Positions 24,324-27,126 of a DNA stretch of 34,706 bases are shown here, piece by piece (within the stretch, counting starts at the first letter, position 1; each line of letters begins with the position of its first letter). The notes under the pieces were generated by a model. The model was given only the letters and a program-made list of their open reading frames with translations, was not told the DNA's origin and made no database searches. The position numbers and the translations under genes were made by a program. Source of the stretch: Deltaproteobacteria bacterium (GTDB taxonomy: Bacteria > Desulfobacterota > Binatia > UTPRO1); NCBI GenBank assembly GCA_005879405.1, contig VBKW01000072.1, positions 1 through 34,706 of the forward strand. The letters run 5' to 3'.

Positions 24324-25656
24324 TCCGCCGCGGGCGCTCGCGCGGCTCGACCTCCGCCTCGCGCTGCTCCTCGCCGGCGCGACGGCGGCCTTCACGTCGC
24401 TGCTGCTCTGCGGTCTGCTCGCGTACGCGCTCGTCGAGGCGCTCGAGGAGCAAGCCGTGTTGCTCGACGACGCGATCGCGACCATCGCCGCCGCGACGAC
24501 TGCGGCTGACGTCGCCGCCACGCCGGCCGCGATCCACCGTGGCGTCGCGTACGTCGTGACCGACGCCAGCGGCACGGTGATCGCGCGCGCCGGTGCGTGG
24601 CCGCCGAGCGCGTCCGTTCGTCACGAGCCGTCGCTGCGCGCCGCGCTCGGCGCAACGCGCGACGAGTACCTCGTGCACGAGCGCCGTCTGCCGAGCGGCG
24701 CCACGGTGACCGCAGCGCTACCGCTCGCGCATTTCGCGCGCGAGCGCGGCGAGCTCGTGACTCGCGCCGGCGTCGTCATCGTGCTCGGCCTCTGCGGCTC
24801 CGTCGGGCTCGGCCTCTTGGGTGCGCGCCGCGCGCTCCGCCCAATGCGCGCCGCGTTCGCACGGATGGCGGCCTTCAGCGCCGACGTCGCCCACGAGCTG
24901 CGCACGCACGTGAAACGCGTGCTGAACGGCGCCGAGGTCGCGCTCGCGACCACGGACGACATGCACGCGAAAGACGAGGCGCTCGACGCGATCCGTGCGA
25001 GCGCCGAGGAGATGCGGCGCACGATCGAGCAGCTCCTGCTCCTCGCCGCCGGCGAGGAGGGCCGCCTGCCGCTCGCACGCGAGCGCATCGACGTCGCGAC
25101 GCTGGTCGGGGAGCTGGTGAGCTTCTACGCACCGGAAGCGGAACGGCTTGGGAAGACGATCACCTTCGGCGCGGCGCCGCTCGCGGGCGACAGTAGACGG
25201 ACGCTCGATGCGTCGCTCGCGTGCCGCGACGACCGGCCGCTCGGAGAGCCCGTGGTCGGCGACGAGCGGGCGCTCGGGGTGCCCCTCGTCGTCGACGCCG
25301 ACCGGGCGCTCGTCGAGCGCGCGGTCGCGAACCTCGTGGAGAACGCGCTTCGCCACAGCGCCCCGAGGTCGCGCATTCGCGTCGTCGCGGCGGCAGGCGA
25401 CGGTACGATCGCCGTCGCCGTCGAAGACTCCGGGCCCGGCATCGAGCGCGCCGACGCCGAGCGCATCTTCGAGCGCTTCGTGCGCCTCGACGCCGCCCGC
25501 GGCCCGGGTGGCGCCGGTCTCGGGTTGCCGATCGCGCGCATGATCGCCCGCGTCCACGGCGGCGACGTGGCGGTCGCCCCATCGGCCCTCGGCGGCGCGG
25601 CGTTCCGCCTCACGCTCTCCGGGACATCGGCGTCGCGACGGTTCGCGAGCCGGTAG
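24307..25656 (+). CDS. Sensor histidine kinase with an altered H-box
   Basis: 449 residues. Two membrane helices (about 17-42 and 156-178) flank a periplasmic sensor loop. No clear HAMP consensus. The dimerisation helix carries FSADVAHELRTHVKRVL: His about 195 is present, but the usual Pro-Leu after HELRT is replaced by His-Val. N-box NLVENALRHS, G1 DSGPGIE, F-box FERFVR, G2 GGAGLGLPIAR are intact. Between the helical domain and the N-box an extra stretch of 30 or so residues contains a near-repeat, VVGDERAL and VVDADRAL. It overlaps the response-regulator gene by 17 nt, so they form one transcript. Probably a metal sensor; the ligand is unknown. Confidence 0.92.
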   Translation: MLSTPDPPRALARLDLRLALLLAGATAAFTSLLLCGLLAYALVEALEEQAVLLDDAIATIAAATTAADVAATPAAIHRGVAYVVTDASGTVIARAGAWPPSASVRHEPSLRAALGATRDEYLVHERRLPSGATVTAALPLAHFARERGELVTRAGVVIVLGLCGSVGLGLLGARRALRPMRAAFARMAAFSADVAHELRTHVKRVLNGAEVALATTDDMHAKDEALDAIRASAEEMRRTIEQLLLLAAGEEGRLPLARERIDVATLVGELVSFYAPEAERLGKTITFGAAPLAGDSRRTLDASLACRDDRPLGEPVVGDERALGVPLVVDADRALVERAVANLVENALRHSAPRSRIRVVAAAGDGTIAVAVEDSGPGIERADAERIFERFVRLDAARGPGGAGLGLPIARMIARVHGGDVAVAPSALGGAAFRLTLSGTSASRRFASR

Positions 25657-25719
25657 CTCATCCAGAAGAGCAGCGTCAGCACCGCCTGCGGGTAGTGGGG
25701 CACTTTTGTCGCGCCTGGG

Positions 25720-25793
25720 ACTGGGTCAAGTTGCGAGCCAGACGAGGCGCGAGGGTACTGGGCCGAGTTGCGAGCGAGACGAGGCGCGAGGGA
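25720..25793. repeat. Two tandem copies of a 37-bp unit
   Basis: Copies at 25720-25756 and 25757-25793 both read ACTGGG(T/C)C(A/G)AGTTGCGAGC then AGACGAGGCGCGAGGG, with about four differences. They lie in the non-coding region between the kinase and thiolase genes. Confidence 0.75.
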
Positions 25794-25880
25794 AGTGAGC
25801 AGCGCAGGCGTAGCGGAGCTACGCCGAGCAGCGCAGCGACCGAGCAACGAAGTATCGCGACGCAAATCGGCCCAGTACCC
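25753..25880. repeat. Large palindromic intergenic element
   Basis: Twenty-base arms GGGTACTGGGCCGAGTTGCG (25753-25772) and the inverse at 25861-25880 pair with one mismatch. In the middle sits a perfect 8-bp hairpin GGCGTAGC-GGA-GCTACGCC (25807-25825). The element includes the second 37-bp unit. Size and nested palindromes resemble dispersed non-autonomous elements, but only one copy exists in this window. Confidence 0.6.
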
Positions 25881-25935: not shown

Positions 25936-27126
25936 ATGCGTGAAGCCGTCATCGTCGACGCCGTCCGCACGCCGCTCGGGCGCGGCAAGCAGACCGGATC
26001 GCTCTACCCCGTCCACGCCGTCGATCTCGCCGCGAAGCCGCTGCGGGCGCTCGTCGAGCGTACCGGCATCGATCCCGCCCTGATCGAGGACGTGATCATG
26101 GGCTGCGTCAGCGAAGTCGGCGAGCAGGGCCTGAACGTCGGCCGCAACGCGGCGCTCGCCGCCGGCTTCCCGGAGAGCGTCTGCGGCACGACCGTCGATC
26201 GGCAGTGCGGCTCGAGCCAGCAGGCGCTGCACTTCGCCGCCCAGGGCGTGATCGCCGGCGCGTACGACGTGGTGATCGCCGCCGGCGTCGAGTCGATGAG
26301 CCGGGTGCCGATGGGCACCAGCGTCGGCATCGGCGGTCAGCCGTTCGGCCCGACGATGATCCGCCGCTACGTCGACGCCAACCTGTACGGCGCCGGCGGT
26401 CTCGTGCAGCAGGGAATCTCGGCGGAGATCATCGCCGACAAGTGGCAGCTCTCACGCTCGGCACTCGATGCGTTTTCCGTTACGTCGCACCAGAAAGCGG
26501 CGGCGGCGACGCGAAACGGCTGGTTCAAGAACGAGATCGTCCCGGTCGAGGTGCGGCGCGAGGACGGCTCGCGCGAGACGATCGCAACCGACGAGGGCAT
26601 TCGTCCCGATACGTCGCTCGAGAAACTCGGGGCGCTGAAGCCGGCGTTCAAGCCCGACGGCCGCATCACCGCCGGCAACTCGAGCCAGATCACCGACGGC
26701 GCCGCCGCGGTGCTGGTCATGGAGAAGGAGAAAGCGCGCGTGCTCGGCCTCCGACCGCGGGCGCGCTTCCATACATTCGCGCTCGGCGGCGTCGACCCGG
26801 TGATCATGCTGACCGGTCCGATCCCCGCGACGCGTGCGATCCTCGAGCGCTCGAAGCTCACGCTCGCCGACATCGACGCGGTCGAGATCAACGAGGCGTT
26901 CGCGCCCGTCATTCTCGCGTGGGAGCGCGAGGTCGGCGCCGACCTCGAGAAGGTAAATCTGCACGGCGGCGCGATCGCGCTTGGCCATCCGCTTGGCGGC
27001 AGCGGCGCGCGCCTCATGGCGACCTTGCTGAACGTGCTGGAGCGCATCGACGGCCGCTACGGCTTGCAGACGATGTGCGAGGGCGGCGGCATGGCGAACG
27101 CGACGATCATCGAGCGCTTGGACTGA
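25936..27126 (+). CDS. Thiolase (acetyl-CoA acetyltransferase / 3-ketoacyl-CoA thiolase)
   Basis: 396 residues; ATG at 25936 with a good SD (gcaggaggt). All active-site elements are present: Cys91 in VDRQCGSSQQALHFAAQGV (acyl-enzyme), the ESMSRVPMG segment, the substrate loop ITAGNSSQITDGAAAV, NEAFAPV, His351 in GGAIALGHPLGGSGAR, and Cys381 in QTMCEGGGMANA. The enzyme condenses or cleaves acyl-CoAs. Length and ending are those of degradative thiolases. It is followed by an aldehyde dehydrogenase on the same strand after 44 nt. Upstream lies the palindromic repeat region. Confidence 0.96.
   Translation: MREAVIVDAVRTPLGRGKQTGSLYPVHAVDLAAKPLRALVERTGIDPALIEDVIMGCVSEVGEQGLNVGRNAALAAGFPESVCGTTVDRQCGSSQQALHFAAQGVIAGAYDVVIAAGVESMSRVPMGTSVGIGGQPFGPTMIRRYVDANLYGAGGLVQQGISAEIIADKWQLSRSALDAFSVTSHQKAAAATRNGWFKNEIVPVEVRREDGSRETIATDEGIRPDTSLEKLGALKPAFKPDGRITAGNSSQITDGAAAVLVMEKEKARVLGLRPRARFHTFALGGVDPVIMLTGPIPATRAILERSKLTLADIDAVEINEAFAPVILAWEREVGADLEKVNLHGGAIALGHPLGGSGARLMATLLNVLERIDGRYGLQTMCEGGGMANATIIERLD

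Follow-up and report, generated by a model that had tools for sequence, protein, structure and literature searches.

A family of about eighty covarying palindromes in a deltaproteobacterial genome, probably mobile and REP/MITE-like

The window, the whole stretch of 34,706 nucleotides analyzed here (contig VBKW01000072.1 of the Deltaproteobacteria bacterium assembly GCA_005879405.1), contains a nested palindromic feature between two plus-strand open reading frames, one ending at 25656 and the other starting at 25936. The initial annotation had described it as two 37-bp tandem units, 20-bp terminal arms with one mismatch, and a central perfect 8-bp hairpin in non-coding DNA, and all of these parts were recovered (Table 1). 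The tandem units (25717-25753 and 25754-25790, 37 nt each) are 89% identical, the single mismatch within the 20 paired nucleotides of the arms is G.A, and the tip stem joins 25807-25814 to 25818-25825 in eight perfect pairs around a GGA loop, the same pairs being found in the computed fold. The stretch joining arms to tip, whose pairing is not mentioned in the initial annotation, is paired as well: tandem G.A steps interrupt stems of 1-3 bp, so that the whole 128 nt form one rod. Its RNA fold reaches −75.1 kcal/mol (z −9.9), its DNA fold −45.5 on the top strand (z −8.5) and −39.7 on the other (z −6.4), and in each case none of 200 shuffles equaled the value. Rfam covariance models gave no match at E ≤ 1 in 16 loci of the family or in the window, and on eight further loci matched only tRNA and RNase P, never the element.

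Table 1. Parts of the palindromic element and of the partial copy upstream of it (positions in the window).
Feature	Positions	Strand	Basis and remarks
Partial upstream left-arm copy (L'), first of two 37-nt tandem units	25717..25752	+	units 89% identical
Rod, the full self-complementary element (128 nt)	25753..25880	+	fold z −9.9 (RNA), −8.5 (DNA); right edge sharp
Left outer arm: 14-bp stem, G.A mismatch, 5-bp stem	25753..25772	+	sequence, fold
Inner rod, 5' side, with tandem G.A steps	25773..25806	+	alignment, fold
Tip hairpin, GGCGTAGC-GGA-GCTACGCC	25807..25825	+	sequence; conserved in alignments A1-A4
Inner rod, 3' side, with tandem G.A steps	25826..25860	+	alignment, fold
Right outer arm	25861..25880	+	sequence, fold; the neighboring gene's stop codon falls here in many other copies

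The feature is not a single copy. A BLAST search of the same genome with a 201-nt region as query listed 40 matches at E ≤ 0.001, and a covariance model of the core built from 54 copies (R1) returned 89 at the same threshold, the last few of them weak; the family comprises about eighty copies of a roughly 130-base hairpin in this bacterium. One false match (L082) was left out. Three forms were distinguished among the sorted copies: type I (46 copies), with arms CTGGGTCRAGTTGCG / CGCAAATCGRCCCAG; a type I variant whose 5' inner strand carries an additional side hairpin, CCTCGTCAAGCGAGG (12 copies); and type II (9 copies), which has a different foot, GCCCAGATGC / GCAGATGGGC. The extra hairpin was seen in L068-L071, L073-L077, L080, and L081. 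A core variant with a perfect mid-stem occurs on both feet (six type I and two type II copies), indicating that foot and core are exchanged as modules.

Beyond this genome, R1 matched in 27 of 148 genomes of the class, and R2, a second covariance model built from the alignment A4 described below, matched in 140 of 297 genomes across the phylum, representing 99 of 199 genera. Additionally, R2 matched 11 places in a genome of another phylum, Omnitrophota, a record that came from a scan of named genomes with too strict a pattern, from which a single contig was returned. A strongly covarying repeat present in 140 of 297 sampled genomes of a phylum and lacking an Rfam entry represents an annotation gap, and a curated model of the family would mark thousands of intergenic stretches. 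The plasmid collection gave no match for the window element, and the plasmid and phage collections none for an element of genome G001. Several arrangements of copies were also seen: inverted pairs ∼180-330 nt apart, as in REPs, in G001 (L095, L098) and G003 (L092); a tandem array of whole elements at G404:C16:46719-47201, where three same-orientation matches follow a 169-nt period; and, at L213 1062-1442 and 1501-1646, an RNase P RNA gene followed 58 nt downstream by an element.

The alignments of copies showed strong covariation. Double changes were present in 11 of 35 consensus pairs among 43 type I copies, with GC at columns 23/106 in 21 copies and CG in 19, and in 18 of 43 pairs among nine type II copies. 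Alignment A1 leaves out L032, and L039 was anchored by hand. Alignment A4 contains 34 copies from this genome, its genus and family, plus a second family; it takes seven of the nine type II copies and omits L104, L114, L116, L118, L120, and L088, the last being the same copy as L102. In A4, 97.2% of cells were paired, 23 of 29 pairs had double changes, and the covariation score was 0.509, compared with 0.174 when shuffled (reached in 0 of 500 shuffles) and at most 0.090 when slid. Compensatory changes are shown to preserve the inner GA-stepped rod in different families and in a second phylum. Copy number and covariation together support the earlier proposal, which preferred a dispersed non-autonomous element or structured RNA over a simple terminator.

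The two strands are not equivalent in these alignments. Read on the top strand, the wobble pairs of A4 comprise 60 G.T and one A.C, as against one G.T and 25 A.C for the bottom-strand fold, an asymmetry that identifies the top strand as the one whose fold is kept. In alignments A1 and A3 the same tendency is weaker; folded as the bottom strand they show no reversal (G.T 11 and A.C 8; G.T 8 and A.C 5), and the asymmetry of A1 comes mostly from one pair (23 of 32 cells). The top strand was also the more stable one in 42 of 43, 32 of 34, and 62 of 75 copies of three sets under RNA parameters, and in 43 of 43, 33 of 34, and 54 of 75 under DNA parameters; this energy preference does not tell RNA from single-stranded DNA. 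The strand-specific wobble pairs leave room for one strand acting in either form.

The right end of the rod is sharp. Beyond it, none of the 2,556 pairs among 72 copies from this genome reached a similarity score of 10, compared with 74 of 2,556 on the left, where similarity usually ran over 30-45 nt; in G338, a complete relative genome, one of 2,775 pairs was similar on the right and 534 on the left. The left extension is a partial left-arm unit, and similarity to such a unit exceeded the 99th shuffle percentile in 19 of 54 left flanks and 2 of 54 right flanks. Among the 59 copies with both ends found, 32 carry one left-arm unit, 21 two, three three, and three four, with a period of 37-44 nt and a spacer that is often private to the site. 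The 37-bp tandem units of the window are thereby explained as the two-unit case of these 5' arrays, for which slippage at the base of the rod would be the simplest source. Among 55 anchored copies (L064, L066, and L076 were not anchorable), pairing dropped to chance once past the outermost 12-14 bp. Nested copies were noted at L023 and L025, where a second right-arm remnant outside the rod faces upstream left-arm units.

Gene context was classified for the 72 copies whose regions were fetched, out of 84 stronger R1 matches, with flanking genes taken from our own simple codon-score gene calls. The copies (E) fell in divergent (-E+, 19), co-directional (-E-, antisense to both neighbors, 19; +E+, sense to both, 17), and convergent (+E-, 12) settings, five having one side unassigned, and three of the 72 lay within a predicted ORF. 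Of the gaps of at least 60 nt, 228 lie between co-directional genes, 100 between divergent and 52 between convergent ones; measured against them, the placement of copies looks unselective. GC3 skew likewise revealed no orientation bias in this genome (38 of 72 copies). Position relative to stop codons was one-sided: in 22 of 32 copies a gene directed at the right end had its stop codon no more than 10 nt from it, as against 0 of 27 for the left end. In 9 of 32 copies the stop codon was at or within the right arm, and the left arm was complementary to it in the cases inspected.

G338 yielded 109 R2 matches, and the best 86 of these differed in orientation between the halves of the circle, 35+/8− on one and 7+/36− on the other (0 of 2,000 permutations). 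In a sample of 800 kb of its 2.75 Mb, 81 of 101 matches were kept, the other 20 being the opposite strand of kept places; where GC skew was positive these copies counted 7+/31−, and where it was negative 32+/11− (Fisher 5e-7). All 13 copies with both neighboring genes on the lagging strand were sense, whereas those with both on the leading strand were 30 antisense and 11 sense, so that orientation in G338 follows replication and not gene direction. The lagging-strand template carries the weakly folding strand in most G338 copies, and copies placing the strongly folding strand there may be selected against or inserted less often. The bias was weak in G423 (31 of 2,000 permutations reached the value; best 37 of 88 matches) and absent from G242 (1,437 of 2,000; best 16 of 39) and G419 (342 of 2,000; best 10 of 57), and on the evidence from these genomes, G338, and the present one the replication-strand rule is not general. 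The family could serve to test whether strong hairpins are kept away from the lagging-strand template.

The G338 copies also have a larger unit: in 54 of 75 copies it starts with a terminal repeat lying ∼28 nt to the left of the rod, and its right end is CAGCAGCCTG; the terminal inverted repeats are CAGGYTGCTGAAAAA, the left one facing the right arm, and the corresponding element ends in the present genome are CTGGGTCRAGTTTGC. The tetranucleotides on the right flank (n = 77) were YTAR-like and included CTAA (19), TTAG (9), TCAG (5), TTAA (4), and CCAG (4). This extends to sites with no stop codon nearby,.TA or.CA standing next to the end in 22 of 29 copies whose right gene points away. Exact 4-bp flank repeats were in weak excess, at 12 of 54 copies (shuffled mean 4.9, maximum 12 in 1,000), consistent with a possible 4-bp target duplication; a duplication of TA only was unconvincing (26 of 54 equal vs. 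21.4 shuffled), the 4-bp version being better. Stop codons of genes directed at the right end lay no more than 10 nt from it in 28 of 48 copies. Since TAA and TAG are contained in YTAR, an insertion at a stop codon would leave the gene intact and may be tolerated. YTAR is the target consensus given for IS5 in the available text of PMC10359306; an assignment to IS701 was dropped, no paper joining the two having been found. The G338 rule of YTAR and duplication does not carry over to the present genome as it stands, where a YTAR-like tag occurred in 1 of 34 copies whose right gene points away (control 7 of 61) and no target duplication was found. Two very short palindromes in G338 (L236 7760-7810, L238 11275-11322) consist of two terminal repeats with no rod.

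The outermost arms can be private to their sites. In the present genome, pairing outward of the conserved CTGGG/CCCAG stem is locus-specific, with a mean run of 3.31 compared with 1.27 in shuffled flanks (32 one-unit copies). In the Omnitrophota genome, six of the 11 matched places were read: all six have arms of 20-26 bp with zero mismatches, five of the six arms begin 0-1 nt after a tRNA gene, and among these five copies the arms were 0.54 identical (shuffled 0.48) and the cores 0.71. Seven other tRNA genes in the same loci are followed by stems of at best 5-6 bp in six cases and 10 bp in one, and several of their trailers open with a T run, as the arms do. The right arm thus resembles the tRNA gene's own trailer and the left arm an inverted copy of it, and the seven controls make insertion into a pre-existing hairpin unlikely. 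In L218, the trailer downstream of a tRNA-Arg gene (392-466) holds CTCATCTGC, the junction sequence of the element, and is perhaps a decayed copy.

Insertion may thus possibly, although we suggest this only tentatively, build a new outer stem by copying the neighbor's DNA, giving a private arm of ∼10-25 bp, paired without mismatch, whose start is the neighbor's stop codon or the exact end of the mature tRNA. A strand joined to the 3' end of the gene would fold back through the self-complementary core and be extended on the flank; reverse transcription of an RNA intermediate cleaved at the tRNA end would also be compatible. To our knowledge, no described bacterial element inserts by rebuilding its arms from the neighbor's DNA. 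Should the arms be rebuilt every time the element inserts, the insertion mechanism would be an unusual one, testable in cultured Geobacter-like bacteria.

The feature in the window is probably a member of a large, REP/MITE-like family of non-autonomous mobile palindromes, and not a cis-acting RNA, a reading that rests on the many near-identical and almost exclusively intergenic copies, the sharp right end, the conserved rod, and the 5' arrays of left-arm units. Between the two options of the initial annotation, the dispersed element is favored because orientation to genes is random, the ends are sharp, and the flanks resemble those of mobile elements. Conservation of an internal rod by covariation is not usual for a MITE and counts against a mobile palindrome. 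Movement would be in trans, by an enzyme recognizing the ends or the folded top strand. Pairs of inward-facing ends that could bound a parent insertion sequence, 500-3,000 bp apart and enclosing a gene-sized stretch, numbered 0 in 904 kb of the present genome and 23 in 800 kb of the 2.75 Mb of G338, most of the 20 listed lying between known copies.

Among candidate enzymes, a Y1/HUH transposase moving a REP on single-stranded DNA, as in the TnpA-REP or IS200-IS605 type, would account for the palindrome with its mismatched stem, the intergenic location, the inverted pairs in G001 and G003, the strand-specific fold, and the replication-strand bias of G338. Y1 matches co-occur weakly with the element, being present in 111 and absent from 29 of 140 carrier genomes and present in 100 and absent from 57 of 157 others (p 0.003, among the matches listed), but the 29 carriers without one, and the present genome with 0 Y1 matches, speak against dependence on it. 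Additionally, the rod is far longer than a REP, no constant GTAG tag is present, and 53 of 54 Y1 loci have no element pairs around them. Target duplication is not expected of HUH elements, so the possible 4-bp duplication in G338 is a further difficulty, and we regard this origin as rather unlikely. A Y1-linked REPtron was dropped as a candidate after 20 loci searched with R1 gave one weak match (E 0.17) and 54 searched with R2 gave one (L268). The weak R1 match sits in G132:C144 (L129), flanked by two Y1 transposase matches that are ∼4 kb from each other.

The other readings place the function of the fold in transcripts. If the top strand were transcribed into a small or cis-regulatory RNA, as supposed for a Geobacter family termed 'predicted short RNA elements' in the available text of its description, the strand-specific wobble pairs and the lower top-strand folding energies under RNA parameters would be expected; the same energy preference, however, appears with DNA parameters, there is no Rfam match, G338 copies are oriented by replication, and copies in the present genome show no preference relative to flanking genes (+E+ 17, -E- 19). 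A structured RNA is accordingly unlikely, and a cis-regulatory RNA of fixed orientation in particular is unsupported by the orientation counts of the 72 copies. The stop-codon positions in both genomes, and the five of six Omnitrophota copies directly after tRNA genes, would suit a hairpin maintained locally by selection, as a transcription terminator or at the 3' end of the neighboring gene, yet 19 of the 72 copies occupy divergent gaps, near-identical copies stand at unrelated sites, and the other tRNA genes of the Omnitrophota loci do without such stems. A simple terminator is rejected on the first two of these observations, and a T run of the intrinsic kind was not seen after the rod in the copies inspected by eye; a terminator kept site by site is very improbable. 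The mobile palindrome remains the preferred reading.

Beyond one earlier description, literature searches by sequence strings and by topic listed nothing recognizable as this family, although further accounts may exist in print. That description, by Aklujkar et al. (2009; PMC2700814), gives 24 'predicted short RNA elements' in Geobacter metallireducens with the central palindrome GRCGTAGCGCTGCTACGCC, and the available text extends the family to G. sulfurreducens, G. uraniireducens, and Desulfotalea. The palindrome is exact to the printed consensus in 44 of the 72 copies, on the bottom strand, and corresponds to the element tip on that strand. The two families are alike in this palindrome, their intergenic location, and their many copies; the comparison covers a 19-nt motif, and the available text treats the members as RNAs. 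The same source describes class-1 repeats of G. metallireducens, tandem GTTGCTYN, as paired regulator sites, and the 3' inner strand of the rod, read on the other strand, is by eye a run of similar octamers.

REP/BIME and TnpA-REP (RAYT) elements, as presented in the available parts of PMC3733652 and PMC8266576, are tagged palindromes of 20-50 nt. Like them, the present elements are short, intergenic, palindromic, and numerous, with a mismatched stem, a strand-specific fold, and inverted pairs (G001, G003), and versions of REPs flanked by TIRs exist. Unlike them, the elements are ∼130 nt long and have neither a constant GTAG or CGTC tag nor a linked Y1 gene among those found: at the palindrome foot, bottom-strand tags in G338 read TTAG, CTAA, CTGA, and others, none was recovered from the present genome, and a Y1 gene flanked by the repeat was sought in the present genome (0 Y1) and at 54 Y1 loci (one holding an element). 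IS5-type MITEs share the terminal inverted repeats and YTAR-like flanks of G338, and differ in that the inner rod here is conserved by covariation, that no parent insertion sequence was found in the parts seen, and that the features of G338 were not recovered in the present genome. We file the family, known to us from print only via the available supplementary legend on G. metallireducens, within the REP/MITE kind.
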